Below, in pieces: positions 1,783 to 52,982 of a DNA stretch of 64,000 bases. The notes below the pieces were generated by a model that worked only from the letters and a program-made list of their open reading frames with translations, had not been told where the DNA came from and searched no databases. The DNA lies in the NCBI GenBank assembly GCA_017403825.1, contig JAFRDO010000083.1, positions 1-64,000 on the forward strand, given 5' to 3'. Numbering within the stretch: the stretch's first letter is position 1; each line of letters opens with the position of its first letter. The position numbers were made by a program, and so were the translations under genes. Source of the stretch: Kiritimatiellia bacterium. GTDB taxonomy: Bacteria > Verrucomicrobiota > Kiritimatiellia > RFP12 > UBA1067.

Positions 1783-2432
1783 ATATGACCACTGATGAAC
1801 TCCAACGGTTAGAGTCGCTGGTGCTAAATGCCGAGCGTGATAAGGAGGCGGCACTACAGCTCGCCATTGACGCGACCAAACTGCTTGCAGTCACGAAGGA
1901 GAATCTTGACGATTACAAGGGACACGAATTCTTTAAGCATTGTCTGCACGTGTTTTGTGGTGAACAAGATTCGATAGATGAGGTCGATGAAAACAGTTTG
2001 ACCACTGTACAGCGAATGGCCTTCGCTTACTTGATGAAACTCAAGGAGCAAAACTTGATTGACGAGCAAGATATTGCTTCAGGAATACAAAAAGAGAAGG
2101 ACGAGACTGTAGACATTGCCGCGAAAGCAATATTGGCCATGGGAAACCCCTTGGCGTTGGGAGCAACTTTGGTTTCGGGCATGTCTAAAGAAGAGGCACA
2201 GCAGAAATTGGATCAGATTATCGAACGTATTGGCAACAACGCTGATGATTGCAACAATGATCCAAGAGCGATATTGAAGCGCCTACGTGAACTCCACGAT
2301 CAACTTGGCGATCAGATTGGCGAAATCGAAGATGACCCCGAAGACGTCGCAAGTGGGTTGGAGAACATCTACACCGAAATGGAAACGCAACTGGACGCGC
2401 TTGAAGAGGCACTTGAAGAAGAAAAGGCCTAA
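1779..2432 (+). CDS. Acidic helical protein of unknown function
   Basis: 217 aa, overlapping the previous stop by four bases (ATGA), so it is probably translationally coupled. The N-terminal half is helical and charged. A Gly/Ala/Leu-rich stretch near residues 112-132 (AILAMGNPLALGATLV) could insert into or touch a membrane. The C-terminal 70 residues are strongly acidic and coiled-coil-like. I do not recognise a family. Because three operon partners also carry hydrophobic segments, it may be a component of the same membrane-associated complex; this is inference. Confidence 0.65.
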   Translation: MNMTTDELQRLESLVLNAERDKEAALQLAIDATKLLAVTKENLDDYKGHEFFKHCLHVFCGEQDSIDEVDENSLTTVQRMAFAYLMKLKEQNLIDEQDIASGIQKEKDETVDIAAKAILAMGNPLALGATLVSGMSKEEAQQKLDQIIERIGNNADDCNNDPRAILKRLRELHDQLGDQIGEIEDDPEDVASGLENIYTEMETQLDALEEALEEEKA

Positions 2433-2463
2433 CCTGACGAGTGGGGAAACGAGAGAACTGCCA

Positions 2464-3795: not shown

Positions 3796-3806
3796 CGAGG
3801 TAATCT

Positions 3807-6401
3807 ATGAAACTTCTTGACCGCATAATGGGAAGACAAAATGTTGACGAAACAACCCTTCGTGAGGCCATTTCATCGGCGGCGTCCGATTTTAGCAACG
3901 CCCGCTATGAGGCGGATAAAAAGACGATTGATTATCGCATGAAAATTGCCGACGACAAGGATCGTGCCCGCCGGGAACTATCAGCCCAAGAAGACGATGA
4001 AAAACGCAAGCAAGGGCTACAAGCTGTCTATGCATTGAATCTATGCATGGTCTCCTTGTCCCAGATTGTAGATTACGCGGACATCAATGTTCTTAAGCAA
4101 GAGTATGATTCTATTCTTAACAATCTTAATCTTGAGGTGATGCCGAAAGACGAAGCCCTGCTATCTGCACTTAAGCAAATCCTCGATACGTGCCATTTTT
4201 ACATCCTTCACCAGAAGGATAAAGAACTGCTCACCAAGAAGCAAGAACTGCGATTGAGTAATGCGCTTGGCAATGCAGTCTCTGGCGGAGTGTTTGCGAT
4301 TTTTTCAACTCCTAACCCTTGGGCGATAGCGGTCTCTGCCGCCACAATGATAGGAGTTGCTGCCGTACGATACAAAACGGAACGCCGCAAGGCCATGTTG
4401 GAAAATGAAATCGAAGCGTGGGAACTTGAGAAGACGGCATTAGAGCAACTGCATAACCTTCGGCGCACACTTTTTGAGACGGCATGGCGACTTTCAAAGG
4501 AGTACGGATTCGCCGACAGTTTGCGTCTTACAGAGTCGCAGATAAAGAACTACAACGAGATTCTGACTGACCCTGATCCGCAATCGCGTTATGAGCGGCT
4601 TTCGCTTATCAAAAACGATTTTGAAGCATACCCCCTGTTTTGGTATTATCTTGGACGTGCCGCGATGGAGGCGGCAGAGTTGTTCTTGCCGAGCGATGAG
4701 AGGCAGAAGCGTCTTGGGTGCGGAGAAGATGTCAATGTTGATGTGGTCGGTGCCTTTCTCAATGTTGAAGCCCGCGCATTGACGAACGATGTCGAGTCAC
4801 ACGGCAAGGCAATGTCATTTTATAGCCTTTATCGTGAAGAAGCAAAAAATGCCTTTGACAAGTTCAAGCATTTTGACGATGACTCTGAGGCGGAGGTCAA
4901 GCTCACGAATCTGCTTCGGGAGGATGTCGTTTCCGCCTCGGCATGGCTTGACGCATCGGATTTTTGCAAAACATGCAAAGACGAACTGGAACATATAGAG
5001 CGAGCTTATGCTCTTGCTGGAACCAATGCGGAATTGCTTCAGACATGCGCCTTCAGGTATTTGAAACTGCTTCACGACGCGACAGCGGATGACGATTCGT
5101 TGACTGAAAACGGAATCAAGATTTGCGTCGTTCATGCAGAAGATTGTTTGCGTAAGTTGATAAGTGCGGATGTCCGACCCGATCTGAATGGCAGGGCATT
5201 GGGTGCTTTGTATAAAAAGTCCTATGACTTATTCCATGGGGCGTTTACCATTGATTTTGCGAATGATGAGTCGTTAGAATTCAATCCTCGCAACCGGTAT
5301 CTGCGAATGAAGGCTGCGCTTTCATCGAAGCATGCTTTTGTTCCTATGTGGTTACGGCCTTGGGACGGGCCTGAACTTGCAACTGAATGGGGACGGTATC
5401 TTAATGGGGATGGGCTTAAGCGTTCATTGGCGTGTTTTCTTGATGGTAGAATGCGAACACTTCTGAAGAAATTTTATGCGGCACTTGAATCGGATCTTAC
5501 TAACGGCAGTTGGAAAGGTCTGGCAACACTGAAGTCAGATTGGGGCGATGACGATCCTGTCGCGAAAGTGATTACGAAGAACGACAAACCAGAGATTGAA
5601 TTGAAAAATAAAAGCTTTGAGGAGGTTCATATGCGCTTCTGGTATGACGGCAGTGAGTACAAATCATCCTTACTGTCAGACGCATATAAGAATCAAATGC
5701 AACTAATCGTGCGTAATCCACTAGGCGCGGCAACGCATGCTGTTCTGGACGGAGCCACTTGTGGTGCATATAGCGCATATCGAATGTGCAGATATATCAA
5801 GGAGAGGATAGATAAATCTAAAGAGCGTCAGATGGAAATCAAAGTGTCATTGGAAGACTTGGTTGATTTTGAAGTGGCGTCAGCCATCAAGGATTTATTA
5901 GAGCACACGAAGAAGGCGGATGCGTTTGCAGATTGTGCAAGAGAAAGTTTTAGGGAGTGTTTTGAGCGTGAGGCAACGCTGTATAATCGCATTGCTAATT
6001 TTGTGTACAAATCAGAATCGGGATGGATATGGAAAGACAATCCTGAAATACCTGTATCCCAATATGATGATGAGATTGATTTAATCGAGGAGGCTTTGCG
6101 GAAATTCATTGTTGCGGCAAGTGGAATGGTTGCAGATATTATCATCAGTGAATTAGAATTTGATGCGCATGCAGGGGAAAAGAACGAGCAATCTGCAGAG
6201 AAGACGGCTACAACCTACTTTTGCGCTGAAAGAATGCCAAAAAACATCTCGATACCTCTTTGCGTTGCCTTTGTCCAAAGCATCGAAAAGAAGGTAGAAG
6301 ATTCTCGGTGCAATATAGCCCGGAGTAGAATGGGTGGTAAATTCACATTTCCAGCATACTGGTCATCACTCCCCGGTGGGGTGGGAGCTTTGAAATCATG
6401 A
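3807..6401 (+). CDS. Large helical membrane-associated protein, unknown function
   Basis: 864 aa, 11 bases after the EEP gene, with CGAGG as the likely ribosome site. Residues 1-150 are charged and coiled-coil-like. Residues about 153-190 form one or two hydrophobic helices (SGGVFAIFSTP, WAIAVSAATMIGVAAV), followed by another coiled coil. The rest is alpha-helical with TPR-like helical pairs but no clear TPR consensus. I do not recognise a family. The hydrophobic hairpin flanked by coiled coils suggests a membrane-tethered scaffold or pore-forming part of the operon's system, which is inference. Confidence 0.65.
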   Translation: MKLLDRIMGRQNVDETTLREAISSAASDFSNARYEADKKTIDYRMKIADDKDRARRELSAQEDDEKRKQGLQAVYALNLCMVSLSQIVDYADINVLKQEYDSILNNLNLEVMPKDEALLSALKQILDTCHFYILHQKDKELLTKKQELRLSNALGNAVSGGVFAIFSTPNPWAIAVSAATMIGVAAVRYKTERRKAMLENEIEAWELEKTALEQLHNLRRTLFETAWRLSKEYGFADSLRLTESQIKNYNEILTDPDPQSRYERLSLIKNDFEAYPLFWYYLGRAAMEAAELFLPSDERQKRLGCGEDVNVDVVGAFLNVEARALTNDVESHGKAMSFYSLYREEAKNAFDKFKHFDDDSEAEVKLTNLLREDVVSASAWLDASDFCKTCKDELEHIERAYALAGTNAELLQTCAFRYLKLLHDATADDDSLTENGIKICVVHAEDCLRKLISADVRPDLNGRALGALYKKSYDLFHGAFTIDFANDESLEFNPRNRYLRMKAALSSKHAFVPMWLRPWDGPELATEWGRYLNGDGLKRSLACFLDGRMRTLLKKFYAALESDLTNGSWKGLATLKSDWGDDDPVAKVITKNDKPEIELKNKSFEEVHMRFWYDGSEYKSSLLSDAYKNQMQLIVRNPLGAATHAVLDGATCGAYSAYRMCRYIKERIDKSKERQMEIKVSLEDLVDFEVASAIKDLLEHTKKADAFADCARESFRECFEREATLYNRIANFVYKSESGWIWKDNPEIPVSQYDDEIDLIEEALRKFIVAASGMVADIIISELEFDAHAGEKNEQSAEKTATTYFCAERMPKNISIPLCVAFVQSIEKKVEDSRCNIARSRMGGKFTFPAYWSSLPGGVGALKS

Positions 6402-6413
6402 GTACACGGTTTA

Positions 6414-7703
6414 ATGTGTACGATGTTAAAAGACAACGCTATGAAAGAGTTAGATGATTTGCTTGTTCTATCTGAAAAGGTAGGATTATCGTTACGCGCT
6501 GGTGAGCAAACGAGCAAGCACTTTTCAGATCGGCTATCAATAGTGTCTCACAATGCAAATGTTCTAAAGTCGGAAGCGGATCGAATGTGTGATCTGTGTT
6601 CTAATGCCGAACGGGTAATCGATAAGATCGACGAGGAGTTTTGTAAACTTACAGGGTTGGATGCCGCAGATTTCACCTTTCTTGCTATCGCAACGGCACT
6701 TCAGACTGCTCGATGGATCATAATTGATTGTCTGACCGATTTCGGTTCGGGTACTGAACGTGATGAACGTGTCAATCATAACGACAAGGCAATCAAGGAT
6801 GCGGAGCAGGAATCGAAAGATTCAACCGTTGAAGAGATGAGCGATGTTGGCGACTTTCGTCGCAGGAGTGATGTCATACGAGGTAGAACGTGGAATGAAA
6901 TATTGACGGAACCGGTTCCGTTCGATGTGATTGACGGTTCGGCGCAATTTGGACTTGGATTGAGCGGGAAGAATCATCGAGAGATGACATTGGGACACGA
7001 TCCTGTTCTTGGGTGGTTTTTCGGAACAATTAATATCTTGACAGATACAACAACTATCAAGAATCTTCGAACTTTCGTGATGTCTCGAGACCCGAAACTT
7101 CATTTCTCAACAGAGACGATCTTTACAAATGCTTTGATGTCGGCGTGGTATAACTGTAAACTTGACAAAAAAAGGTTGGCGGCTGCAATTACCATGGAGG
7201 CAATTCACCTAAGATCCGATTTCTTTACCAAAGCTGGATTGCCTATTCCGATTATAACATCAGTATTGCCCGACTTGTCGTCATCACTTTACAAAGATAA
7301 TTATGATGCTCTTTGCCTTGCGAAAGATGTTGGAATTGTGGCTATGCAAGCAAAGATGTCTATCCTCATTAACATTGTTATCGCTCAACTACATGGCTAT
7401 TTCTTTGACCCGAAAAAGCACCAGTCTCGTGATTTGTATGAAGTTAAGACGCACAAGATACTTCTTTACTCAAATATTCTCGCCGAATCATCAAATGTCA
7501 TTACCGTTGCAGTTCGACACCTAATGGGTGATGTTTGTGCTTGGAAACATCTTGACTTTGGAGGTCTTTTGGTTCTGCTTTGGAGAATCATTAAGGACGT
7601 GAATTTCATGTACAAAGTCCGCGAGGATTTTGTTTCAAGCAAGTTCAAAGAGATAGTTGTCGGTGATTATGAAAAAAGGCTTTGGCCGATAAAGGAGAGT
7701 TGA
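6414..7703 (+). CDS. Operon protein of unknown function (429 aa)
   Basis: Starts 13 bases after the previous stop. ATGs at 6414, 6423 and 6441 are all possible and none has a good ribosome site. The protein is mixed helical, with several long apolar helices (residues about 85-107 and 330-350) but no clear signal peptide. The central part contains HDPVLGWFFGTINILTD and HLRSDFF. No family is recognised. Its fixed place between two membrane-associated partners suggests it works with them. Confidence 0.62.
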   Translation: MCTMLKDNAMKELDDLLVLSEKVGLSLRAGEQTSKHFSDRLSIVSHNANVLKSEADRMCDLCSNAERVIDKIDEEFCKLTGLDAADFTFLAIATALQTARWIIIDCLTDFGSGTERDERVNHNDKAIKDAEQESKDSTVEEMSDVGDFRRRSDVIRGRTWNEILTEPVPFDVIDGSAQFGLGLSGKNHREMTLGHDPVLGWFFGTINILTDTTTIKNLRTFVMSRDPKLHFSTETIFTNALMSAWYNCKLDKKRLAAAITMEAIHLRSDFFTKAGLPIPIITSVLPDLSSSLYKDNYDALCLAKDVGIVAMQAKMSILINIVIAQLHGYFFDPKKHQSRDLYEVKTHKILLYSNILAESSNVITVAVRHLMGDVCAWKHLDFGGLLVLLWRIIKDVNFMYKVREDFVSSKFKEIVVGDYEKRLWPIKES

Positions 7704-7705
7704 CA

Positions 7706-9646
7706 ATGGAAGATACTACGAAAGTTGGCATCGCAACTGGTGTCATTACGGCACTTGTCGGTGGAATCGCGGCGTTTATTTCCTACAAGCAAGGGCATTC
7801 AACCGGTCATGCGGAGGGAATTGCTAAAGGCTTTAAGATGGGTGAAGAAAAATTTAAGGGGTTAAGAGAGAAGTACGAAGAGACATTGAAGCAAATTCAG
7901 GAACTAAAAGAGTTTAAAGCGAAAATCGAAAATGATCTCAATGGGTCGCGTGCTATCGTTGAAGAACTATATAATTATCTCAAGGAGAAAGGGTATATCA
8001 GTGAAGAGACCTACAGCAAATTGACATCAAATCTTTGGCAAGGAAGATTCGATGACTTTTCTACAATTATGGACGATGTAATCAATGCAGAACAAGAAGC
8101 GTGTAATGTGATTAATGGTGATGTGGGGAAAGGACGAGTAGATATACAGAGCCATGGGGAGTCGTTGCCATCTTACAATGAAGTCCGCATTGTGTTTTCT
8201 GATACGGTTTGCGGTGTATATAAATACCCACAATGCAAGGAAGCCCTTTTGCCGAACGATGAGATATTGTTTTCATCACCAAAACTGCTGGAGCGTATAA
8301 AGTCACTTATCCCTGAATGGCGGTTTGAGTATCGTGAAGCCCCCGTTGCTCCAGTAGAACCTATGGCTTGCGCAGAGACGCCGTGGCTTCAGGCGGAATC
8401 TATAAGTAATGTGAGTGCCGTCAATTTAAGTCAGCGGATCGAAAGGCAGTTAAGATCCTTGAATGAGTCTCGGTTTGACGTAAGGCAGATGGGTGTTTTG
8501 TCGCGAGAGAAGTACGACTATGAATGTATTTGCAGGAACGCCCTTCGAGATTTGGACGGGCAATATGTTCTTTGTGACAAGGTAGAGTTTAGGAGCAAAT
8601 ACTTATGGGCAAACCTTCCTGAAACGGTAGGTGGGCTTGACTACGAACATGGATGCGTTACAAGTAAGTGGCTTGATGACTACCTTTGGAAAAGATGTAA
8701 TGAAGTAAAAGATGCAATATCGGCGTTTTTGACATTGCTTTCAGATGCAGATAAAGAAAGGATGGAAAAGAATCGGGTTGTCTTAATGGATATCGCCAAG
8801 AAACTTCCTGTTTTTGGAGCGATTGAATTTTCAGGAGATACTCCATGTGTCCGATTTAGTGACGATATTTGTATTCGTATTGCGATTCCTGATCTGCCCA
8901 TATATTTTGAGGGCGATAATTTTAATGTACACACGAATGTTGATCTGCGGAATGAATTACAAAAGCTCGTATCTAACTGGAAAGATATGCCAGTTTCAGA
9001 CTCTCGAATAGATGGGATTTTAAGCAGCTTTCGTTATGTGAACGGCTACCCTCGCAAGGGGGCCCCGTTGCCGGCAGAAGGTGCGGTTCGAGAGTTTCTG
9101 AGGTTCAAAGACGCAGCAAGAGTATTGTGCGATAATATTTTACATGAAATGATAGGCAAGCAGATATGTTGTCAAGCTGTTGAGATAAAACGGGTTGACG
9201 GTGTTATCGTAGAGTCGTCAGAGGCGGTAAGTAATGAAATTACAAAAGTGCTTTCCGACGCTGTTGCAAGTGTACAACAGAAATTAAATGACTTTGCCAA
9301 ATCGCGAAACGCCGTTCTGTATTGTTATGGTGATTTGTTTCCCGAATTGAAGACACCCCGCTATTATGAGAAGTGGAGAATGCTTGATAGGGCAGCAACC
9401 ATGCCACAGCTTCGGGTTGGTGACATTGTCTCAGGGGTTGTTCGCAACATCAAGGAATATGGTGCTTTTATTGATTTTGCAGGAACGAGTGGTTTACTTC
9501 ACATAAGTGAAATCAGCAATGCATTCGTGAAGGATGTTAATCAATTCCTGAAAGTAGGTCAATGTGTTTCTGTCAAAATCATTAGCATTGACAACTCTAA
9601 GGGGCGTATCAGTTTGAGCATGAGAAAGCTATGTGAAAATAAGTGA
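7706..9646 (+). CDS. Membrane-anchored coiled-coil protein with C-terminal S1 domain
   Basis: 646 aa from the ATG at 7706, two bases after the previous stop, with AAAGGAGAG well placed upstream. Residues about 6-27 are one transmembrane helix (GVITALVGGIAAFISY). Residues about 35-85 are a coiled coil. A long middle region is unrecognised. The last 75 residues are a classic S1 OB-fold RNA-binding domain (VGDIVSGVVRNIKEYGAFIDF, then GLLHISE, then GRISLSMR). S1 domains normally sit in ribosomal or RNA-decay proteins, so a membrane-anchored one is unusual. With the EEP nuclease in the same operon, binding of RNA at the membrane is a reasonable inference. It is the last gene before a terminator. 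Confidence 0.78.
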   Translation: MEDTTKVGIATGVITALVGGIAAFISYKQGHSTGHAEGIAKGFKMGEEKFKGLREKYEETLKQIQELKEFKAKIENDLNGSRAIVEELYNYLKEKGYISEETYSKLTSNLWQGRFDDFSTIMDDVINAEQEACNVINGDVGKGRVDIQSHGESLPSYNEVRIVFSDTVCGVYKYPQCKEALLPNDEILFSSPKLLERIKSLIPEWRFEYREAPVAPVEPMACAETPWLQAESISNVSAVNLSQRIERQLRSLNESRFDVRQMGVLSREKYDYECICRNALRDLDGQYVLCDKVEFRSKYLWANLPETVGGLDYEHGCVTSKWLDDYLWKRCNEVKDAISAFLTLLSDADKERMEKNRVVLMDIAKKLPVFGAIEFSGDTPCVRFSDDICIRIAIPDLPIYFEGDNFNVHTNVDLRNELQKLVSNWKDMPVSDSRIDGILSSFRYVNGYPRKGAPLPAEGAVREFLRFKDAARVLCDNILHEMIGKQICCQAVEIKRVDGVIVESSEAVSNEITKVLSDAVASVQQKLNDFAKSRNAVLYCYGDLFPELKTPRYYEKWRMLDRAATMPQLRVGDIVSGVVRNIKEYGAFIDFAGTSGLLHISEISNAFVKDVNQFLKVGQCVSVKIISIDNSKGRISLSMRKLCENK

Positions 9647-11888: not shown

Positions 11889-13046
11889 ATGAAAAAGTAT
11901 CTGGAAAGAGAGCTTGGCAAGAAAATCGTTCAGTGGGCGAGGCAGTATCCTGTCGTCACGTTGACAGGGCCGCGTCAGAGCGGCAAGACGACGCTGGTGA
12001 AGTCCCTGTTCCCGAAATATGCCTACGTCAACCTGGAGAATCCCGTCGAGCGGGATTATGCCGAGAGCGATCCTGTGGCGTTTTTCGGGCAGTTTCGCCG
12101 TGGTGTCATAATCGACGAAATCCAAAGAGTGCCGGCGTTGCTTTCTCATGTGCAGAGTATTGTGGACGAGTCCCCGGATGAACATGGGCGTTTTATACTT
12201 ACCGGCAGCCAAAACCTTCAACTTATGAAAGGCGTTTCGCAATCGCTTGCTGGCAGAACTGCCATCGGGTCGCTTCTGCCTTTCTCTCTGTCGGAAATCG
12301 GCGGCGGAAGCAATTTGTGGAAGACGTTGTGGCAAGGTTTTTTCCCGCGCATATTCCATGACAATCTTGACCCCACCGAGGCCCTTGCCTTCTACACGGC
12401 GACATACCTTGAGCGCGATGTGCGCGAACTTGTAAGGGTCAAAGACCTTTCCCGCTTTTCCCAGTTCCTCCGCCTTTGTGCGGGGCGAACTGGGCAGTTG
12501 ATGAATGCCGCAAATCTTGCGTTTGACTCCGGAATAGCGGGAAAAACAGCATTGGAGTGGATTGCCATCCTCGAGGCGAGTTATATTGTGCGTCGTCTGC
12601 CACCATGGTTTGCCAACGTTTCCAAGCGTCTCTCCAAAACGCCAAAGATGTATTTCCTCGACACGGGACTTGTTTGCTATCTTCTTGGTATAGGTTCTCC
12701 CGATCAGTTGGCGAGTCACCCCTTGCGCGGTGCCATATTTGAAACATTTGTTATGACGGAGTTTTGGAAGCACTATGCCAATCGCGGCGTTGTGGACAGG
12801 CTCAGCCATTACCGTGATGGAGCGCAGCGAGAGATCGACCTTGTAGATGAAGGGCGGTCTGGTAATTTGCTTGTCGAGATCAAAAGCGGGCAGACGCCAA
12901 ACTTGGAATGGGGAGAGACGCTTAGGCGTATTTCGGACATATTCCCTAACGCTTCGCAACTTTGTGTCGTCTATGGAGGGGCAAAGGAGCAGGTGCGTTC
13001 AGGTGTTCGCTTCGTGCCGTGGCGCAACATCGGGAGTTTGCTTTGA
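11889..13046 (+). CDS. AAA_14 / DUF4143 ATP-binding protein
   Basis: 385 aa from the ATG at 11889; an earlier in-frame start would lie upstream of the -35 box. The Walker A is GPRQSGKT (residues about 27-34), the Walker B IIDEIQR, and sensor-like LTGSQ follows. The C-terminal DUF4143 part has a nuclease-like EIDLV...VEIKS motif (PD-(D/E)xK style). Members of this large family occur in many copies in free-living bacteria and archaea, and their function is not settled. It is a close relative of the 34885 gene and more distant from 25855. It seems to have inserted between duplicated TerB-J units. Confidence 0.88.
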   Translation: MKKYLERELGKKIVQWARQYPVVTLTGPRQSGKTTLVKSLFPKYAYVNLENPVERDYAESDPVAFFGQFRRGVIIDEIQRVPALLSHVQSIVDESPDEHGRFILTGSQNLQLMKGVSQSLAGRTAIGSLLPFSLSEIGGGSNLWKTLWQGFFPRIFHDNLDPTEALAFYTATYLERDVRELVRVKDLSRFSQFLRLCAGRTGQLMNAANLAFDSGIAGKTALEWIAILEASYIVRRLPPWFANVSKRLSKTPKMYFLDTGLVCYLLGIGSPDQLASHPLRGAIFETFVMTEFWKHYANRGVVDRLSHYRDGAQREIDLVDEGRSGNLLVEIKSGQTPNLEWGETLRRISDIFPNASQLCVVYGGAKEQVRSGVRFVPWRNIGSLL

Positions 13047-25854: not shown

Positions 25855-27060
25855 ATGGTCTTACGCAAGAAAATCATAGAAGAGGTTCGTCCTTTTATCG
25901 GAACTGACGTCGTAAAGGTCATCACCGGCATACGCCGTTGCGGGAAGTCGGTGCTGATGTCGCAGATACGCGATGTCATTGTTTCCGAAATCGACAAGAA
26001 GGCCTCTGTTTTCTACCTCGACCTTGACGACGAGGCAAATGCAAGATACCTGAAGGCGGGGGTGCTGTTCAAGGAGTTGACGTCAATTCTGGACAAGTGT
26101 CCAAATCGCAAGACATATGTGTTTCTCGATGAAGTGCATGACATGGAAGGATGGGAGAAGACCGTCAATTCTATACGAAAGCGGAAGAATGCGGATGTTT
26201 ACATCACGGGATCCAACTCCAAGTTGCTTTCCGGGGAGTTGGCGACGTATTTGACCGGGAGGTATGTCGAATTTTCACTTACGCCTTTTTCATACCAGGA
26301 GTTTCTTGAGGCATCCGGTTCTTCCAATACAGACGAGGCTTTCAGGCGATACCTTGAGTTCGGGGGCATGCCGTTTCTCTCGGAGCTTGGATACAGGGCA
26401 AATCCTTCGATTCGGTATTTGCGCGACGTGTACGGCGCAATACTGCTAAAGGACGTCGTAAGGCGAAAGGCCATTCGCGACGTCGATCTTCTGGAGCGGA
26501 TTGTCCGCTTCGTGATGACAGAGACGGGGCACGTGTTCTCGGCAAGAAGGATTGTGGATTTCCTCAAGAACGAGCAATGCGTCACGGCTCCGTCAACGGT
26601 CTTGAACTATCTCAAGGCGTGCGAGGAGGCGTTCCTTCTCCGCAAGGTCGAACGCGAGGATCTGATCGGAAAGCGAGTGCTCAGTGTTGACGAGAAATAC
26701 TATGCCGCCGACACCGGATTGCGGAATGCGAACGTGGCCGCGTCGCTCCAGCGAGACATAGACCAGCTGCTTGAGACGGTGGTTTTTGCCGAGATGGTGC
26801 GGCGCGGCTATAACGTGACGATTGGCAGGGTCAAGGAGAAGGAGGTTGATTTCGTGTGCGAAAAAGGCAACGGCAGACTCTATGTGCAAGTGGCGTATCT
26901 GATGCCGACTGCGGAAACTCGCAATCGTGAGTTCTCTGCATTGATGAGTGTGCCGGACCAGTATGAAAAGGTTGTGCTCTCAATGGATCGGTTTGACTTC
27001 TCGAGCAGCGGAATCAAGCATCGCTATTTGCCTGATTTCCTGCTAGAATCAAGGGAATGA
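25855..27060 (+). CDS. AAA_14 / DUF4143 ATP-binding protein (second type)
   Basis: 401 aa. Walker A GIRRCGKS (residues about 23-30), Walker B VFLDEVHD, ITGSNS sensor, ELLARRY-like TGRYVEFSL. The C-terminal DUF4143 region has KEVDFVCEKGNGRLYVQV, a degenerate PD-(D/E)xK-like motif. It belongs to a different subgroup from the genes at 11889 and 34885. The molecular role of this family is not established. A -10 box and ribosome site fix the start at 25855. Confidence 0.88.
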   Translation: MVLRKKIIEEVRPFIGTDVVKVITGIRRCGKSVLMSQIRDVIVSEIDKKASVFYLDLDDEANARYLKAGVLFKELTSILDKCPNRKTYVFLDEVHDMEGWEKTVNSIRKRKNADVYITGSNSKLLSGELATYLTGRYVEFSLTPFSYQEFLEASGSSNTDEAFRRYLEFGGMPFLSELGYRANPSIRYLRDVYGAILLKDVVRRKAIRDVDLLERIVRFVMTETGHVFSARRIVDFLKNEQCVTAPSTVLNYLKACEEAFLLRKVEREDLIGKRVLSVDEKYYAADTGLRNANVAASLQRDIDQLLETVVFAEMVRRGYNVTIGRVKEKEVDFVCEKGNGRLYVQVAYLMPTAETRNREFSALMSVPDQYEKVVLSMDRFDFSSSGIKHRYLPDFLLESRE

Positions 27061-34884: not shown

Positions 34885-36081
34885 ATGATTGATCGAATAC
34901 TTTCCAAGAAGATTCTTGAGATGTCGCACCATTATCCGGTTGTGACACTACTTGGACCCCGCCAGTCTGGTAAGACGACGCTTGTTAGAACTCTGTTCCC
35001 TGCTTTTGCTTACGCCGATTTGGAAGATCCAGAAACACGGGCGCTTGCTCGCGACGATCCGAAGACATTTTTTGAGAACTATCCAGAACCGTTGCTTGTG
35101 GACGAAGTTCAGCGTGTGCCGGAACTGCTTTCGCATATTCAAGTGCGCGTTGACGCGGATCGACGGCGCATGGGACGTTTTATCCTCACAGGGAGCCATC
35201 AGCCCAGGCTAAAGGAGGCCATATCCCAATCTCTTGTCGGACGGACGGCGGAACTGGAACTGCTCCCGCTTTCGCTGGAAGAGCTGGCGGAGCGGACGGG
35301 GCCCGTCCCGACCGACACGATCCTCCTGCGCGGATTCTTCCCGGACGCTTGGGAAACCGATGTTCCGCCTACCGACTTTCACCGGAATTATTTGCGGACT
35401 TATGTAGAGCGCGATGTAAGGACTTTGCTGGAAGTGCGCAACATTGCAGCATTCGAGAAATTCCTGCACCTTCTTGCCGGCCGCGTAGGGCAAATTGTCA
35501 ATCTTGACGGACTTGCGGGCGAAGTCGGCGTAAGTGCACCCACCATAGAGAACTGGATTTCCGTCGCCGAAGCGTCGTTCGTCGTGTTTCGCCTTCGTCC
35601 ATGGTTTGCCAATGTCGGAAAGCGTTTCGTCAAATCGCCGAAGATATACTTTACGGACGTCGGGCTCGCAGCATATTTGCTTGGGATTGAAACGCCGTCC
35701 CAGCTCGCTCGCGATCCATTGCGCGGCAGCCTCTTTGAGAACATGATCATTGCGGACCTCGTCAAGGCGCGGACGAATTTGGGGCGCGAACCTGCGCTGT
35801 TTTTTGTACGCGACTCAAAGGGTTTTGAGGTGGACGCGCTTTATGCCATAGGGCGGGAACTGCGTCCGTTCGAAATCAAAAGCGCAAGGACGTTTGATTC
35901 CTCCTTTTACAAGAACCTTGTCTCCTTTCGGAGTCTAGTTCCTGAATGCGCCACCCCCGCTCTCGTGTACGATGGCGAATCATATTCGGAGCGTGGAGGC
36001 GTTCGCTGTCTCGCCTTTCGCGCTCTCTCCGGCCGGACAGTCTTCAGCCAGGGCGGAAAGGATAGCGGAGGATGTAGATGA
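34885..36081 (+). CDS. AAA_14 / DUF4143 ATP-binding protein
   Basis: 398 aa. Walker A GPRQSGKT, Walker B LLVDEVQR, LTGSHQ sensor. The C-terminal half (DUF4143) has FEVDALYAIGRELRPFEIKS, a nuclease-like E-D-ExK pattern. It is closely similar to the protein at 11889 over its whole length, but each has a different upstream palindrome. The stop overlaps the start of the next gene by ATGA, which places a hydrolase in its operon. Confidence 0.88.
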   Translation: MIDRILSKKILEMSHHYPVVTLLGPRQSGKTTLVRTLFPAFAYADLEDPETRALARDDPKTFFENYPEPLLVDEVQRVPELLSHIQVRVDADRRRMGRFILTGSHQPRLKEAISQSLVGRTAELELLPLSLEELAERTGPVPTDTILLRGFFPDAWETDVPPTDFHRNYLRTYVERDVRTLLEVRNIAAFEKFLHLLAGRVGQIVNLDGLAGEVGVSAPTIENWISVAEASFVVFRLRPWFANVGKRFVKSPKIYFTDVGLAAYLLGIETPSQLARDPLRGSLFENMIIADLVKARTNLGREPALFFVRDSKGFEVDALYAIGRELRPFEIKSARTFDSSFYKNLVSFRSLVPECATPALVYDGESYSERGGVRCLAFRALSGRTVFSQGGKDSGGCR

Positions 36082-45835: not shown

Positions 45836-45900
45836 TGCTATAATACCCACATCCCGCGAGGCGGTCTGCGCGGCGCGGGGTCATAGTCCGGAAAACGGAA
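45836..45900 (+). other. Promoter plus GC-rich RNA-like segment
   Basis: TGC-TATAAT at 45836-45844 is a good extended -10 promoter. It is followed not by a gene but by a GC-rich stretch with GCGAGGCGGTCTGCGCGGCG and AGTCCGG...AGGGCA, which weakly recalls the 5' part of RNase P RNA before the sequence breaks into repeats. It may be the remnant of an RNA gene; the identity is not established. Confidence 0.3.
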
Positions 45901-46000
45901 AGGGCAAGTGGGTGAGTTGAGAGTGGATGAGTGGGTGGGTTGACTCCCACGCTCCTTCACTCCTCCACTCCACCACTTCTCCCGCTCCCGCCGGGCGCTT
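45899..46000. repeat. Fold-back heptamer-rich low-complexity repeat
   Basis: The left half is built of GTGGGTGAG, TTGAGAG, TGGATGAG-like units, and the right half of CACTCCTC, CACTCCAC, CACTTCTC units, so the halves are partly complementary and could fold back. Its style matches the repeats at 15951, 29770 and inside the gene at 61555. No gene lies in 45716-46240. Confidence 0.65.
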
Positions 46001-46005
46001 GTCAA

Positions 46006-46023
46006 TGTAGCATCAACGCTACA
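46006..46023. repeat. REP-like hairpin (TGTAGC-ATCAAC-GCTACA)
   Basis: A 6-bp stem with the same GCATCAACG core as the hairpin at 34745. Confidence 0.4.
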
Positions 46024-46080
46024 CGTCGTTCATCCGAAATACGACCAAACATTTCAAAGTCGAACGGCATGTAAGTGGGG

Positions 46081-46103
46081 ATGCGCTCAGTTGGGCGCAT
46101 TTT
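46081..46103 (+). terminator. Weak intrinsic terminator
   Basis: ATGCGC and GCGCAT form a short stem followed directly by TTTTCT. It may end transcription from the promoter at 45836. Confidence 0.4.
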
Positions 46104-46240
46104 CTCTTCGTGTATTCGATTTGGGCCTTTGGTCGGGCTTCGGATGAGTGCATGAACTGGAATCTGCGCTCTTTTTCATGCAAGCGAGGTGGTCTCTGCG
46201 ACGAAGGGAAGCGTAAAAGTGATTTCGGTTGAGTTGCCAA

Positions 46241-48169
46241 ATGATAGTTGTACATGAACTTGCAGACGATATTTTTGCTGCGTCGACAATAGAAGGGCTG
46301 GAAGCTGGTGTTAAAGGTTTCTTGTCCAGGATGAAGATTGCTGATTGCTCCGTTGTGAGAGATGGGGGGCGAGTTCTTGTAAACTTCCCAGATAATAAAG
46401 ATATAGATGCTGAAGAAGACGAGCGTATCGTCATTTTGTTTTGCAATAGCGGTCGATTTGGGAAGGCAAGGAAAGTTATCCGAGAATGGATTGAGAAAGC
46501 GCCGTGGAATTCGGATGCATACCGCCTGGCGGCACAGGTTGAGATGATGGAGGGGAATATCGACGATGCCATAGAGAAGGCCAAGAACTCGCTGAAACTC
46601 AATCCAAAGAACCTGTATGCGTTGATCCTTTACGGAAATCTTCTTGGAAGGGACAAGGGATTGCATGGCGAAGCAATCAAATGGTACAAGAGAGCTTCTG
46701 AGCTTTATCCCGAATCGTCTCTTGCCGTGAATAATTATGCAGGCTGCTTGTTGCAGTCTGGCAACTATGACAAAGCCGAAGTGGAAGGATTGTTTCGCAA
46801 GGCCATTTCTCTGGACAAGACAAACATTCAGTCGTATTATGGGCTGGCAAGCCTCGTCTTGGAAAGTGGGAATTACAAGGAGGCTTTTGAAATAGTAAGA
46901 GATGGGTTGATGAATGGCATCGAGAAGCCCGAGAACAATTTGCCGATAAACGAGGTGATGACAGAGATGTTGGTCAGGATATCAAGAGAACTGGCCAAAG
47001 AGCTCAAGCTTGATGTCGTGAAAGCTGTGTGCGAAGAAGTGGGGCGGATAGATGGTGTGGATATTGAGCTTGCTGAGGATGATGGCCTCAAGGTGCTGGT
47101 AAAAATGGAGCTTGCTGAGCGCTATGGCAGGAACAGCCATCGGCTCGTGTACAGCCCCCGGATAGCCGACAAGGGCGGAACGTACTTGTTGGTGCAGGAG
47201 CTTGAGAAGCATCGGATGCATGTCGAGGCGAAGTCGGCAGGGCGTGATGCGTCCTTCGTTTGCGATAGCGCCGGGGCAATGAAGTTTAAGGACTGGATCA
47301 TGCCGTATATCACCGGCAAGTTTCGTGCCTGTGTACCGGTTTCCAAACTGGAAGATGCGATTGACAATCTGCGTATAGGTCTTGGTGGTCAAATCATGAA
47401 TACGCCGCTTGACTATTTTTCTGAAAAGAGGACAGCAGTTAAGTACAGGGAACTTGGCCCTGACCATGTTGTCGCATCATATCTTCTTTGCGCGGAGGCG
47501 ATTGAGTCGGCCAAAGTAGGCGAAGCATCAGGCGTTCCAAAAAGGATTCTCCATGCAAACAAGGCCATGAATGCCGTGATGTTCATGCTTCACAAGGAAT
47601 TGACAGGATTGGACATGGTGAAGCATCTTCGCCTCGAAACTGAGGAGGAAAAGCTCGTTGCTACGCTGCGGAACGCATGCAAGAGTGCTGAAGCAAATCA
47701 CAAGCCGGGATGTGAATGGGACGTGGTGCGGGTGTTTGTTGAAGTACTGAGGGTTGCGGATTTCTTCAGGGTGGAGGATTCCGCGTCCAAGGCAGCTGAA
47801 GAGCAGAGGCGGAAAGACAGCAACCAGAGCTTCCAGGAACGCATAAAGTCTGGCTCCGATCCTGCGCTCAACATGGCAATAACGATGCATATGATCGACG
47901 CTATAAAAAGATTGGAAGGGCTTGACGTCGAACGGGTAAGGATCGTTGCTGCGCAGATAGCGATGCTGGGAACGAGGGGCATAAGCCCGGACAAAAAGTC
48001 TGGCTATAGCGTTCCAGCCTTGGGGAATGAAGACATGAGCGGTCCGCGAATGCTGGCGTATTACTACGTGTCGTGGAAGATTGGATTCCCTGAAAAGGTT
48101 GATGTCTTGGGCCTGCCTTTTGCGAAGGAATACGAGATGGCCTTGTCGATGAAAAACATGGGGATGTGA
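46241..48169 (+). CDS. TPR-repeat protein, first gene of helicase operon
   Basis: 642 aa from the ATG at 46241; a TTG at 46229 is the alternative and neither has a good ribosome site. Residues about 65-235 hold four to five TPR units (GRFGKARKVIREWIEKAP, GNIDDAIEKAKNSLKLNP, EAIKWYKRASELYPESS). The rest is helical and unrecognised. TPRs mediate protein contacts, and in this operon the protein may be a sensor or adaptor for the nuclease and helicase genes; this is inference. It overlaps the next start (TGATG). Confidence 0.72.
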   Translation: MIVVHELADDIFAASTIEGLEAGVKGFLSRMKIADCSVVRDGGRVLVNFPDNKDIDAEEDERIVILFCNSGRFGKARKVIREWIEKAPWNSDAYRLAAQVEMMEGNIDDAIEKAKNSLKLNPKNLYALILYGNLLGRDKGLHGEAIKWYKRASELYPESSLAVNNYAGCLLQSGNYDKAEVEGLFRKAISLDKTNIQSYYGLASLVLESGNYKEAFEIVRDGLMNGIEKPENNLPINEVMTEMLVRISRELAKELKLDVVKAVCEEVGRIDGVDIELAEDDGLKVLVKMELAERYGRNSHRLVYSPRIADKGGTYLLVQELEKHRMHVEAKSAGRDASFVCDSAGAMKFKDWIMPYITGKFRACVPVSKLEDAIDNLRIGLGGQIMNTPLDYFSEKRTAVKYRELGPDHVVASYLLCAEAIESAKVGEASGVPKRILHANKAMNAVMFMLHKELTGLDMVKHLRLETEEEKLVATLRNACKSAEANHKPGCEWDVVRVFVEVLRVADFFRVEDSASKAAEEQRRKDSNQSFQERIKSGSDPALNMAITMHMIDAIKRLEGLDVERVRIVAAQIAMLGTRGISPDKKSGYSVPALGNEDMSGPRMLAYYYVSWKIGFPEKVDVLGLPFAKEYEMALSMKNMGM

Positions 48170-48519
48170 TGCAAGGGGAAATCCAAGAGATTGAGGCAGA
48201 GATCGCCCGATTCTGTGCCAAGCGCGAATGGGATCAATTCCATTCAAACAAGGATCTTGCTGCCGCAATAGCCATAGAGGTGGCGGAACTGCAGGAAGCG
48301 TTTCTTTGGGACAGGGTTGCTACGATAGAGAAAATCAAGGAGGAGCTTGCGGATGTTTTCATATATGCATTCAGGATGGCGGAGAGGAATGGATTGGATG
48401 TAATGAAAATTGTCCGCGAGAAGCTTGCGGTCAACGCGGCGAAATATCCAGTTGAAAAATGCAGAGGATCGGCAAGTAAGTATACAAATCTGAACGAAGG
48501 AGTCTACGATGGACGGTGA
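48169..48519 (+). CDS. MazG-like nucleotide pyrophosphohydrolase
   Basis: 116 aa. The all-alpha NTP-PPase signature is present: EVAELQE near residue 36 and EELADVF about 20 residues later (ExxE...ExxD metal site). RS21-C6/MazG-type enzymes hydrolyse dNTPs or NTPs, dCTP in particular, to monophosphates. The next gene starts inside its end (11-base overlap). In a putative defence operon it could deplete or sanitise nucleotides (inference). Confidence 0.8.
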   Translation: MQGEIQEIEAEIARFCAKREWDQFHSNKDLAAAIAIEVAELQEAFLWDRVATIEKIKEELADVFIYAFRMAERNGLDVMKIVREKLAVNAAKYPVEKCRGSASKYTNLNEGVYDGR

Positions 48520-50749
48520 ATCACTTCAGGGGGTGCTTTATACGATCAACGATTTCAACGAGCTCGTCCAAGAGGATCTTGACGGGCTCGTTGGTGAAAT
48601 CTGCAGCCATGTGTCAGGGCGCAGGCCGTCGCCGAAAGAAATCGAGGCGATGAAACGTAGTTACGAAGAGGTATCTATGGCGCTCGCCGTGGCTATAAAG
48701 CAGAAACCATCTCTTGCATCTGCATACATCGGTGTGCCGATGGTGAAGTTTGAGTACAAGCTTCCGTCTGCGCCAGCGTGGTGCGATCTGGTCATGCTTG
48801 GCGTGTCTGATAAGCGTAAACAAGCCGTAATTGTCGAGCTCAAGGACTGGTTCAAGAATGCGTCAGACCAACCTGGAATGTGTGAAGGGCTAATAGAGCA
48901 CCAAGGTGTGTCGCATGAGCATCCCTCGGACCAGGTCAAGGGATATGTGGAGTATTGCAGCAACTTCCATTCAGCGGTGCTTGACAACGACGCAGCGGTT
49001 AGCGGCTGTGTGTATTTCACAAGAAGTTTTAACACTGAGCCGTATTGTGCGTGGCCAAATGACATGTTGACAAAAGAGTATCCTGTCTTCTGTCGCGATA
49101 CTCGTTCGGAACTCGCCAGCTATGTTGTGGATCACATTGACGAAGGAGATTCCGATTGGGCTGTTAAATTCATCAACGGCTATTACCGTCAGAACAGGAA
49201 TATCCTCAAACAGGTTGCCGAAGCATTCGAGACAAATGCGGACGCAAGGCCGTTCATTTTGCTTGGAGAGCAGCGCCGCGGCTATCATCAAGTCCTTCAT
49301 CGGCTTTCGGAGGCTGTAAAGAACGTTTCTGAGAAGCGCGTCATCATTGTTTCTGGACCTCCAGGATCTGGCAAAAGTGCGATTGCGCTCAATCTTTGGG
49401 CCGAAGCCGTTCGTCGCTATGTGACTAATGCAACAGGCGCTCATCCAGGCAACGTGGTCTTTGTTTCGACATCTTCTTCCCAGGATGAGAACTGGAAAAG
49501 CATTTTCAAGAAATATTCGGACATTGATTCTTCTGGAGGTCTAGTCATGCGGTCCAACCGGTTCAACCCCGGTATGACCGGCGCCACGATGAAGAAGACA
49601 TATCTGCCCATATTCAAGGCAAGGGACCCTCGATATCTGCGAGACGAGAGTTCGCTGGACTTCCGATACTATGAGGAGTATACGAATTACATGATGGAGA
49701 ATGGCCTGGCCGAGGGCTACAAGGACAATCTTCATTTCTTGTCCATTGTTGACGAGGCGCATGCGCTCATCAATCCATTGGCCGAGGGATTTAACTCGAA
49801 CAAGATGAGTGGCTGGTGCCTTCAGATGGGGCCACAAGCCTACCATATAATACGCGAGAGTCGGATTTCCGTCTTCTTCATGGACGGCGAGCAGTCGTTT
49901 CGCGACAACGAGACCACGACACAGGCCGACTTAATGCAGCTGGCCTGTAAGCTTGACGCAGTTTGCGAAGTCATCGATTTAAGCGACCTGCAGTTCCGTT
50001 GCGCGGGCAGCGTCGAGTATGTCGATTGGATTGAGGGATTGTTCACCCTGAATCCAGCGACGAATGTCGACCTTTGGAAAGATGTGTTTTCCGTCAAGGT
50101 GTTCGATACCACGCATAAAATGGAGTCGGCTCTGCGAGTAGAGCAGGAGAAAGGGCTGACGGTTCGATTGCTGTCTTCATATACGGTTGACTGGATTTCG
50201 AGCAAGACGCTTGATGAAATGCATACGAAAGGCGACGTTGATTGCGACTTCGACTTCAAGAATGAAGACGGAACTGTGTTCAAGCGTCACTGGAACAATC
50301 CCAAGAAAATGGACATTTTCGTCCAGGCGCCGCCGCATACAAAGATGCATGACGATCCGCTTTGCGAAGTAGGGTGCCCATATGAGATTCGCGGATTTGA
50401 CTTTGACTATGTTGGCCTCCTTTGGCTAGATGATGTGGTCTGGCGGAAAGACAAGTGGATGGTCGATATCGGCAAGACGGTCGACCGAGCAAACTCTTGC
50501 TCCGTGTCACAGGCCCGAAAGGAGTTGGTCGCTATTCGCAAAAAGATGGGCTATCGTGGTGATGCTGCTAAGAGGATTCCTCTCGTTCCGTTAGATGTTA
50601 ATGTCGACAAAATGCCGATGACAAAGAAGTTCTTCCGCCGCGTCATTCAGGCATATCGAATTCTTTTGACGAGAGCGGTGCGAGGTGTTTATATCTACAT
50701 CCATGATCCAGAAACGAGGGCGCATGTCAGGAGTCTCCTTGGCCAGTGA
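48509..50749 (+). CDS. PD-(D/E)xK-like plus DUF2075 ATPase
   Basis: 746 aa. The N-terminal 250 residues contain D93 and E110-L-K112 (WCDLVML...VIVELKDW), a PD-(D/E)xK nuclease pattern. From residue about 270 a DUF2075/Schlafen-type helicase-like ATPase follows: Walker A SGPPGSGKS (about 283-290), Walker B SIVDEAHA, then FFMDGEQSF, LQFRCAGS and, near the end, LLTRAVRGVYIYI, which are superfamily 1 helicase motifs. Its last 26 bases overlap the helicase gene. It is probably a nuclease-helicase that senses or cuts foreign nucleic acid. Confidence 0.82.
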   Translation: MDGESLQGVLYTINDFNELVQEDLDGLVGEICSHVSGRRPSPKEIEAMKRSYEEVSMALAVAIKQKPSLASAYIGVPMVKFEYKLPSAPAWCDLVMLGVSDKRKQAVIVELKDWFKNASDQPGMCEGLIEHQGVSHEHPSDQVKGYVEYCSNFHSAVLDNDAAVSGCVYFTRSFNTEPYCAWPNDMLTKEYPVFCRDTRSELASYVVDHIDEGDSDWAVKFINGYYRQNRNILKQVAEAFETNADARPFILLGEQRRGYHQVLHRLSEAVKNVSEKRVIIVSGPPGSGKSAIALNLWAEAVRRYVTNATGAHPGNVVFVSTSSSQDENWKSIFKKYSDIDSSGGLVMRSNRFNPGMTGATMKKTYLPIFKARDPRYLRDESSLDFRYYEEYTNYMMENGLAEGYKDNLHFLSIVDEAHALINPLAEGFNSNKMSGWCLQMGPQAYHIIRESRISVFFMDGEQSFRDNETTTQADLMQLACKLDAVCEVIDLSDLQFRCAGSVEYVDWIEGLFTLNPATNVDLWKDVFSVKVFDTTHKMESALRVEQEKGLTVRLLSSYTVDWISSKTLDEMHTKGDVDCDFDFKNEDGTVFKRHWNNPKKMDIFVQAPPHTKMHDDPLCEVGCPYEIRGFDFDYVGLLWLDDVVWRKDKWMVDIGKTVDRANSCSVSQARKELVAIRKKMGYRGDAAKRIPLVPLDVNVDKMPMTKKFFRRVIQAYRILLTRAVRGVYIYIHDPETRAHVRSLLGQ

Positions 50750-52562
50750 TCAAGAGGTGGGATTCGACAGCTTTCGCTCGTCGGTCTTGGACTATCTACT
50801 TGCCGAGTGTCGACTTGTCAATGAGGACATCTCTGCGCATGCAGATATGGCGCCAGACGAAAAGGAGCGGTTGGGTTTACTTATCCGCAACGCAACCCTC
50901 CTTGAAGGTGGAGACGGCGCGTCATTTTCATATGAGACGCCAAATAATTTCACAAAGCTTCGCCCTGGTGATCAGGTGAGGATTTTGGAGTTGGACTCTG
51001 CTGGCGATGGCATCCGCGCCATTGTCGATGAGAATGCCGTAGACAAGATGTCGTTTACTTTTGAGTCGTCGGAACCATTGCAGAAGTCTTCCGCGCGGCT
51101 CCCTGCGAAAGTGGACATTGTAGTCAATGAGCAAAACAACCTTGACACTCTGATTTCAGTTGTGCGGGATATTGTGGACGGGAGTCGAGGTCTGCGATTC
51201 TTGAAAATGCTCGGAGGATTCGCCGCACCGAGAGAGGATGGACTGTTCGGCCGAATTGAAGACCTTGACGACTCGGAAATTCCTGAATCATTCAATGATG
51301 TGCAGCGTAGCGCGGTGCGCATGGCGATGCGACGTCCGAGTCTTGCGTTTGTTCAAGGCACGCCCGGGTCAGGCAAGACTCATTTGCTTGCCGTTGTGGC
51401 GAGGGCATATGCACGGCGTGCAAAGGACGTCGTGGTGTTGGCGCTTACACACCATGCCGTCAATAATGCATTGAACAAGGTTCGAAGCGTTGACAAGGAC
51501 ATTCCAGTTGTTAAGATTGGTAAACAGTTCAAGAACCTTGATCTGGATGAGACCGTTGCACAAGACGAGACTTTCTCGGCGTATCTGCAAAAGCGGAAGG
51601 CGGCGGGGTTCTTTGGGAAGGAGGGCCATGTCGTCGGAATGACATTTCAGGCGGCGTTAACGAATCTTGGCAAACGGAGAAGCGCCTTTACTCCACAGAT
51701 TGTCCTTTTTGACGAGGCCGGACAGATTCCGCTTGCTCACGCGGCGGCCATTGGACAATTAGGAGGCGGTTCGGTTATATTCATTGGCGATGATGCTCAG
51801 ATGCCGCCGATTTATCATCCCAAACTGGAGAGCGATTCTCTTTCTATTTCTGTCTTTGAACGTATTAAAGCGCTATATCCAACGCACGGCCGAGTCCTCA
51901 ATGTTACTTACCGAATGAATAGTCGGATCACGAGTTTTGTCGGGGATTGCTTCTATCGACCAAGGGGCATCAAGTTGGAATGTTCTGAATTCTCGGCCAA
52001 ACGGCACATTGATGACCCAGAGATTGAGTTTGCGGTGTGCTCGTCGGCAGGATCCACTGATGAGAATGCAGTTGAAGCGCGAACGGCTGTAGATATCGCC
52101 AACAAGTATCTTGATTCTGGATTGCCGCCGGACCGGTTGGCAATTATTACGCCTTACCGACGGCAAGTAAGGTTGATTCACAAGTTGTTGAATGAGAACA
52201 GTCCGGGTCGCTTGGATATTCCGCTCGTTGATACTGTTGAGCGGCTACAGGGTCAGGATGTAGATGTAATTATTCTTTCCTTCGCTGTTGATGACGAGGT
52301 GTATTTTGCGGCGCAGAAGTCTTTTTTGCTGAATCGCAATCGATTGAACGTCATGTTTTCGCGTGCGACTTCAAAAGTTGTTGTCGTCTCTGGTCAACTT
52401 GTCCAAGATGAGGTGAAGGCCATTTGGACAAATGCCTGCAAATGGCAAATAGAGTCGAAAAGACAGAAGATTGGGCTGGCGGACGGGAAGTACACATTCC
52501 CGGCTGGTTTTGACGAAGCCTTTGATGCGATGGACGAGGAGATTGCCGAGATGTTCAAGTGA
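50724..52562 (+). CDS. UPF1/DNA2-like superfamily 1 helicase
   Basis: 612 aa from the ATG at 50724, overlapping the previous gene. Motif I GTPGSGKT (near residue 214), motif Ia LTHHAVNNAL, motif II LFDEAGQIP, motif III IGDDAQMPP, then TYRMN, IITPYRRQV, VERLQGQDVDVIILS and NRLNVMFSRA complete the SF1B set. It should translocate on and unwind DNA or RNA. An N-terminal OB-like region (residues about 80-125) may bind the strand. It is the last intact gene of the TPR/MazG/DUF2075/helicase operon. Confidence 0.88.
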   Translation: MSGVSLASDQEVGFDSFRSSVLDYLLAECRLVNEDISAHADMAPDEKERLGLLIRNATLLEGGDGASFSYETPNNFTKLRPGDQVRILELDSAGDGIRAIVDENAVDKMSFTFESSEPLQKSSARLPAKVDIVVNEQNNLDTLISVVRDIVDGSRGLRFLKMLGGFAAPREDGLFGRIEDLDDSEIPESFNDVQRSAVRMAMRRPSLAFVQGTPGSGKTHLLAVVARAYARRAKDVVVLALTHHAVNNALNKVRSVDKDIPVVKIGKQFKNLDLDETVAQDETFSAYLQKRKAAGFFGKEGHVVGMTFQAALTNLGKRRSAFTPQIVLFDEAGQIPLAHAAAIGQLGGGSVIFIGDDAQMPPIYHPKLESDSLSISVFERIKALYPTHGRVLNVTYRMNSRITSFVGDCFYRPRGIKLECSEFSAKRHIDDPEIEFAVCSSAGSTDENAVEARTAVDIANKYLDSGLPPDRLAIITPYRRQVRLIHKLLNENSPGRLDIPLVDTVERLQGQDVDVIILSFAVDDEVYFAAQKSFLLNRNRLNVMFSRATSKVVVVSGQLVQDEVKAIWTNACKWQIESKRQKIGLADGKYTFPAGFDEAFDAMDEEIAEMFK

Positions 52563-52571
52563 GGCGAGACG

Positions 52572-52727
52572 ATGAAATATCTTGTAGACACGCATCTTCT
52601 TATCTGGCGTTTTTGCGATAGCCGTGCGAGACGCGACGTATGCGAACATGCGGCACTTTTCAAAGCATCTTTTAGAATTGTACTTGATTTCCAGGCGGGC
52701 GGTTTTGCAATTACCTCATGTGATTAA
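52572..52727 (+). pseudogene. VapC-type PIN toxin stub
   Basis: ATG nine bases after the helicase stop. The N-terminus MKYLVDTHLLIWRF is the typical PIN-domain start with its first catalytic Asp, but the reading frame soon degenerates and ends after 51 codons (full length is usually near 130). No antitoxin gene is visible. Confidence 0.7.
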
Positions 52728-52880: not shown

Positions 52881-52982
52881 ATGATTGGCAGAATTGATGA
52901 GCAAAAGGAGCTTAACGGGTTGTTTGACTCAAAAGAGTCGGAGCTGTATATGGACGCCGTCGTGCCGGGCGTGGGAATATAA
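52881..52982 (+). pseudogene. N-terminal stub of an ATPase gene
   Basis: With GGAGG upstream, 33 codons begin MIGRIDEQKELNGLFDSKES, which matches the start of AAA ATPases of the DUF234/archaeal-type family (normally followed by a GRRRVGKT Walker A). The rest is deleted and the frame ends 30 bases before the LamG gene. Confidence 0.6.

Follow-up and report, generated by a model that had tools for sequence, protein, structure and literature searches.

Nhi (nuclease-helicase immunity) of Staphylococcus epidermidis and AbiO combine a nuclease and a superfamily 1 (SF1) helicase in one protein, and Nhi is reportedly activated by phage single-stranded DNA-binding protein (PMC10732053). A protein of similar layout is encoded in a 64,000-nucleotide stretch of DNA, here called the window, which comprises positions 1-64,000 of contig JAFRDO010000083.1 from a Kiritimatiellia bacterium referred to here as a gut bacterium (assembly GCA_017403825.1). 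It lies in an operon at 46241-52562, where four intact frames of the same direction, overlapping by 4, 11, and 26 bp, encode in order a TPR protein, a MazG-like nucleoside triphosphate (NTP) pyrophosphohydrolase, a PD-(D/E)xK nuclease fused to an SF1 helicase, and a UPF1-like SF1 helicase. Judged from its sequence, the operon probably serves as a mobile defence against phages or other mobile elements with the nuclease-helicase as effector, a reading backed by two independent lines: a core conserved across phyla and an RNA leader shared with restriction-modification systems. This leader is a previously undescribed structured RNA and the most unusual feature of the locus, and it was missing from an earlier note on the same DNA (hereafter, the sequence-only reading).

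Comparison with described systems

Whereas Nhi and AbiO are single genes, the window adds a MazG gene, a TPR gene, and a second helicase. The PADLOC model of Nhi leaves the nuclease part unaligned and does not reach the window nuclease-helicase, for which Nhi proper was rejected on this ground. All 19 homologues of the nuclease-helicase match the PADLOC candidate PDC-S41 (E-values down to 2e-21), with the match beginning in the nuclease half in several of them, while 17 and 16 of the 19 match Nhi and AbiO, respectively, in the helicase part. Despite this shared likeness, PDC-S41 is defined as a single gene, is an unvalidated candidate as far as could be found, and is matched weakly by the window member. 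The PDC models stem from a guilt-by-embedding screen and most of them have not been validated (PMC12988326).

The group III Schlafen proteins (SLFN11, SLFN13, and SLFN14) offer a second comparison. The window helicase domain scores above the PF09848 cut-off and its weak structural model fits SLFN11, but a PD-(D/E)xK domain takes the place of the Schlafen core RNase domain. No Pfam match to the Schlafen/AlbA_2 core RNase domain was obtained in the window nuclease-helicase; given this missing N-terminal match and the PD-(D/E)xK residues found instead, a Schlafen RNase was rejected. Types II and III of the CoCoNuTs, which contain the UPF1-like helicase CnuH (PMC11090510), and Mokosh resemble the locus in that a nuclease operon includes a UPF1-like SF1 helicase. 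Mokosh was rejected because the helicase domain alone matches MkoA (E 8e-37) and none of the four proteins has a kinase or PLD Pfam match, and CoCoNuT types II and III because neither an AAA_5/McrB GTPase nor a coiled-coil nuclease is among the Pfam matches of the operon.

A PADLOC and NCBIfam scan of the operon gave no system call, in keeping with the sequence-only reading, which knew of no named system with this gene set. Literature mentioning DUF2075 contained nothing on this system, and that on MazG or helicases in defence nothing specific. MazG occurs in a DefensePredictor candidate as a predicted, not validated, defence domain (PMC13092281), and this candidate may or may not correspond to the window operon.

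The conserved core and its partner genes

As judged from gene neighbourhoods, the conserved unit is the pair of MazG and nuclease-helicase genes, with the TPR gene as a frequent third. Among ten genomes of the phylum searched for having good nuclease-helicase matches, each has one or two such MazG genes, and in seven of them the two genes touch (binomial chance ∼1e-16). Of the neighbourhood check that the sequence-only reading had proposed for the DUF2075-helicase pair with MazG, the part on MazG and the nuclease-helicase returned a pairing far above chance. Plasmids of Priestia, Halomonas, Nocardiopsis, and the archaeon Halalkalicoccus also carry the pair, as do four of five viral contigs (IMG/VR), where the genes stand in tandem or diverge. 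Only the 19-member nuclease-helicase alignment reached these viral relatives, as searches of viral contigs with a single nuclease-helicase protein and with a TPR alignment gave no matches. The three-gene set TPR-MazG-nuclease-helicase recurs elsewhere, Bacteroidota included, with copies in Marivirga (L057), on Microcystis phage Mwe-JY31 (L083) and the IMG/VR contig L073, and in a different Kiritimatiellia family (L080); in Hymenobacter the TPR gene adjoins MazG. BREX, methyltransferase, and restriction genes neighbour relatives of the operon.

Only the window and L002, which are close relatives, have the UPF1-like helicase together with the other three genes. On this distribution it is a lineage-specific addition and the exact four-gene set is local, so that the four genes combined in the sequence-only reading are not the conserved unit. 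In Halalkalicoccus, a UPF1-like match (E 1e-18) lies two genes upstream of the MazG-DUF2075 pair, which is suggestive, though it could be a generic UPF1-like match.

L002, a Kiritimatiellae metagenome-assembled genome (JAEEOY010000046.1), carries the four genes in identical order and all open, which together with the open frames of the window upholds the four overlapping genes described earlier. Protein identity between the two copies is 71% for the TPR protein, 73% for MazG, 87% for the nuclease-helicase, and 69% for the UPF1-like helicase. Selection on all four genes is strongly purifying, far beyond chance, with nonsynonymous differences (pN) of 0.07-0.19 and synonymous differences (pS) of 0.65-0.80; the ratio of the corresponding rates (dN/dS) is 0.046 for the nuclease-helicase, while synonymous sites are saturated in the other three genes. 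The flanks share no DNA similarity beyond the four genes and the leader; the operon hence moves as a unit.

The nuclease-helicase (48509-50749, forward strand like all genes and leader elements given below; 746 aa) matches Pfam PF09848, SLFN-g3_helicase, formerly DUF2075, with 172 bits against a cut-off of 24 (E 2e-50). Invariant across the 19 homologues are E82, D93, E110-x-K112, and Q142, a pattern expected for PD-(D/E)xK nucleases; in the helicase part, Walker A (with K289), DEAH, and the motif VI arginine R722 are likewise invariant. The PF09848 match and these invariant residues confirm the proposed PD-(D/E)xK-DUF2075 protein, and the E110 named earlier as an active-site residue is real. 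None of the Pfam PD-(D/E)xK models matched the N-terminal domain of the window protein; the domain nevertheless shows the D...ExK motif with the following Q and, in a low-confidence model, an alpha-beta core with predicted elements beta79-85, beta88-97, beta105-111, alpha139-158, and beta164-170. The AlphaFold models were made from 4-7 sequences and reach a predicted local distance difference test (pLDDT) score of 58 for the nuclease-helicase and 72 for the TPR protein. In the former, structure comparison spans residues 238-746, where the low-confidence helicase fold resembles UvrD (Z 13.3) and SLFN11 (Z 11.8), and the nuclease fold rests on sequence motifs. A sequence search of solved structures returned generic P-loop matches only. 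Nine of the 19 homologues, among them L039-L046 and L048, bear an additional C-terminal S24/LexA-type peptidase domain, as though damage sensing were integrated into the protein; elsewhere, domains of this type report DNA damage.

MazG (48166-48519; GTG start, 117 aa) matches PF12643 (E 5e-15, 56 bits against a cut-off of 27), and its metal ligands ExxE (E38, E41) and ExxD (E60, D63) are conserved in 30 homologues, which bears out the MazG-like NTP pyrophosphohydrolase of the sequence-only reading. The UPF1-like helicase (50724-52562; ATG start, 612 aa, with an alternative in-frame GTG upstream at 50685) matches AAA_12/AAA_11 (E 6e-28), a pair typical of UPF1-like SF1 helicases, so this assignment stands as well; its translation retains intact motifs, namely Walker A GTPGSGKT, DEAGQ, and NRNRLNVMFSRA. 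Its closest outside relative, on a Persicobacter plasmid (L084, 8695-11767), overlaps a Cas4-like nuclease gene and has no MazG pairing, and this nuclease and helicase may form a two-gene defence system. On a Vibrio plasmid (L085, 4042-9069), integrase and VapE genes are followed by HNH nuclease, UPF1-like helicase, and UvrD-like helicase genes in a row, a possible satellite-borne defence.

The first gene (46241-48169; ATG start, 642 aa) encodes Pfam TPR repeats (E 6e-17), and residues 53-250 of its predicted model match TPR folds with Z ∼20; structure comparison spans residues 48-421, and the C-terminal fold rests on sequence motifs. The C-terminal region is homologous to HExxH proteins, with HExxH present in the relatives L050, L056, L057, L073, L080 (AHELTH), and L083 (MHELVH). 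The window and L002 proteins read QELEK in place of this zincin-type motif, so any protease activity has probably been lost in them. The earlier description of an adaptor therefore holds for the TPR fold but not for a plain TPR protein, as its relatives carry an HExxH motif that has degenerated here. In L050 (7000-13244), a TPR-HExxH protein precedes two genes, one AAA_5 (McrB-like) and one McrC-like with DUF2357 and PDDEXK_7. Different nuclease systems thus seem to employ the TPR protein as a sensor module.

A structured RNA leader shared with restriction-modification genes

The leader spans 45836-46206 at the head of the operon. It begins with an extended -10 promoter box, TGCTATAAT (45836-45844), recognized by statistics over leader copies: within the 300 nt that precede the RNA core, 47 of 61 copies contain TATAAT and 32 of the 61 the extended TGnTATAAT, while a generic sigma-70 scan requiring a -35 box found no promoter. 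A 5' segment conserved with L002 (45849-45900) contains a CCCGCG...CGCGGG hairpin and then ATAGTCCGGAAAACGG; it is present in 22 of 58 genomes of the genus, and its ATAGTCCGG motif in 35 of the 61 copies. A variable linker (45901-45984), an insertion absent from L002, separates this segment from the core (45985-46206), which has nine helices and 53 pairs in the covariance model R1. Over the 380 bp upstream of the operon, conservation with L002 exceeds that of synonymous sites.

Very strong covariation supports the core structure, as does folding. In a sequence-only alignment of 55 copies, the 53 consensus pairs are paired in 95.7% of cells versus 83.4% in shuffles, with 357 double changes versus 117. 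The covariation score is 0.387, compared to 0.165 when shuffled and no more than 0.078 after sliding of partners, and column pair 54-192, for example, appears as U-A, A-U, C-G, and G-C. For the window copy, the folding energy is -90 kcal/mol (z -5.06) and the R1 score 230.8 bits. Searches of the window region and six further loci against Rfam 15 gave no match other than chance microRNA matches, and an exact search of IMG/VR with a 24-base piece found no copy. The alignment also points to a possible pseudoknot alternative for helix 4, whose covariation would fit a kissing interaction in which the GAAATA/TATTTC hairpin loop pairs with the GCC/GGC hairpin loop (alignment A6, columns 59-83 and 168-186; window ∼46035-46160). 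At the 3' end, UCUUUUU comes after a helix (columns 195-200 with 211-216), and UGCAUGA could form a competing pairing with UCAUGCA; this arrangement suggests regulation by attenuation, although a generic terminator scan left the 3' helix unflagged.

The core is found in 35 of the 58 genus genomes, with up to six copies per genome. With R1, whose E-values are rough, it is found in 147 of 334 Kiritimatiellia genomes across 40 genera, and it also extends to a small number of further families in the phylum. Of 62 copies, 58 lie within ∼200 nt of a same-strand gene start. The most plausible role of the leader is that of a cis-acting regulatory RNA. Leaving aside the window and L002, approximately 39 of the 57 first genes after the leader are part of restriction-modification or BREX-like loci, as classed by reading of clusters and by Pfam/PADLOC on a 53-protein subset. 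These loci include EcoRI-type adenine methylases with GmrSD-type partners, type I, II, III, and ISP systems, DpnII, SacI, TdeIII, and R.Pab1 nucleases, and DUF6079. As a control independent of this reading, the DNA-methyltransferase motif (D/N/S)PP(Y/F/W), a proxy, is present in 27 of 56 first genes but in just 4 of the 174 remaining genes from those stretches (p ∼1e-15, for copies related by descent). In other genera, ∼14 of 19 copies stand before genes of restriction-modification type, as assigned by homology to this first set, the motif, and inspection. On the same basis, of two weaker copies in the genome of the window, one is followed by an apparent Z1-type NTPase gene adjoining a type III methylase, the other by a type II methylase-nuclease.

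The leader would place the operon in the same regulated gene class as many restriction-modification cassettes and lends independent support to a defence role. A broader proposal, to which even chances are assigned, regards the leader as a new cis-regulatory RNA, widespread in Verrucomicrobiota/Kiritimatiellia, under which restriction-modification and other defence cassettes form one RNA-based regulon, with the operon as an unnamed defence system therein.

Readings of the operon and its setting

The genes, motifs, core conservation, leader structure, and gene associations are established by sequence; from these we infer a defence activity, its substrate, the order of steps, and the mode of RNA regulation. 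Transcription would run from the extended -10 promoter through the large structured leader. The effector, the PD-(D/E)xK-SF1 helicase protein, would engage foreign nucleic acid, its SLFN-group-3 helicase translocating and its N-terminal nuclease cutting in the manner of Nhi-type nuclease-helicases. MazG would hydrolyse (d)NTPs or an aberrant nucleotide, which would starve the invader or remove a signal. The TPR protein may be a sensor or scaffold, a predicted protease in related loci and a pseudo-protease here, and the UPF1-like helicase a second motor recruited locally.

Several observations weigh against this account. The window protein matches PDC-S41 with only 30 bits (E 3e-8, residues 141-302 of 746), and the Nhi model gives no match to it at E up to 1. 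Motif V reads GCPYEIRG in the window lineage and GCIHTCQG in other homologues. MazG-like genes are also found far from nuclease-helicases, and about one third of leader copies precede non-defence genes (BspA-like/leucine-rich-repeat surface proteins, Sel1 proteins, and acyltransferases). The surface genes suggest that the leader serves not defence alone but, more broadly, genes that are variable and horizontally acquired. Apart from two gene remnants, the genes around the operon are glycoside-hydrolase-like and LamG-like, so there is no classical defence island and the earlier claim of such a setting fails. The candidate-defence reading itself holds in essence. The loss of HExxH, the change in motif V, and the added helicase coincide in one lineage, and a functional link among them is speculation.

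MazG could instead be the effector of abortive infection by nucleotide depletion, with the nuclease-helicase and TPR protein as the sensors of phage nucleic acid that switch it on. The conserved catalytic residues of MazG and its tie to the nuclease-helicase in both orientations, including the divergent pairs L074, L076, and L082, agree with this alternative. It is nonetheless unlikely, as the PD-(D/E)xK residues, invariant in all 19 homologues, place the nuclease under strict selection, and some nuclease-helicase loci have no MazG nearby (L040, L046, L058, L060, and L063). Somewhat less probable still is a DNA or RNA repair or stress-response module unrelated to defence, which the LexA-type domains of nine homologues would favour; against it stand a patchy distribution (11 of 346 genomes of the class), carriage by plasmids and phages, low guanine-cytosine (GC) content, varied flanks, and a leader in common with restriction-modification genes. 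Chance adjacency of horizontally acquired genes is very improbable. The locus is indeed a lower-GC insertion (0.49-0.51, flanks ∼0.60) with truncated genes after it, but the overlapping frames, the identical order in L002, and recurrent pairing across phyla speak against chance, which is already refuted for MazG and the nuclease-helicase. A mobile defence operon with a nuclease-helicase effector thus remains the favoured reading.

The toxin stub and ATPase remnant noted earlier at the operon end are real. The former is a truncated VapC/PIN toxin start (52572-52727, 51 codons) whose translation begins MKYLVDTHLLIW, the latter a truncated ATPase start (52881-52982, 33 codons) beginning MIGRIDEQKELNGLFDSKESELY, and both are probably not part of the system. 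The ATPase remnant may be related in kind to the Pfam-confirmed AAA_14/DUF4143 ATPase genes of the window (11889-13040 and 25858-27054), which the start of 34885-36078 also resembles. A second low-GC stretch (217-9643; 0.42-0.47 beyond 2 kb) has the look of a further acquired island. It contains a DUF4062 and HATPase protein with a Fic-like C-terminus (217-1779), several long genes lacking Pfam matches, and an S1-domain protein (7682-9643).

The MazG and nuclease-helicase core represents a recurrent uncharacterised module of bacteria, archaea, and phages, in which a Schlafen-type helicase is joined to a nucleotide-hydrolysing enzyme. If the leader does regulate restriction-modification genes, a structured RNA would be common to many unrelated defence systems across the phylum, and searches for it would open a new route to defence genes outside known islands.

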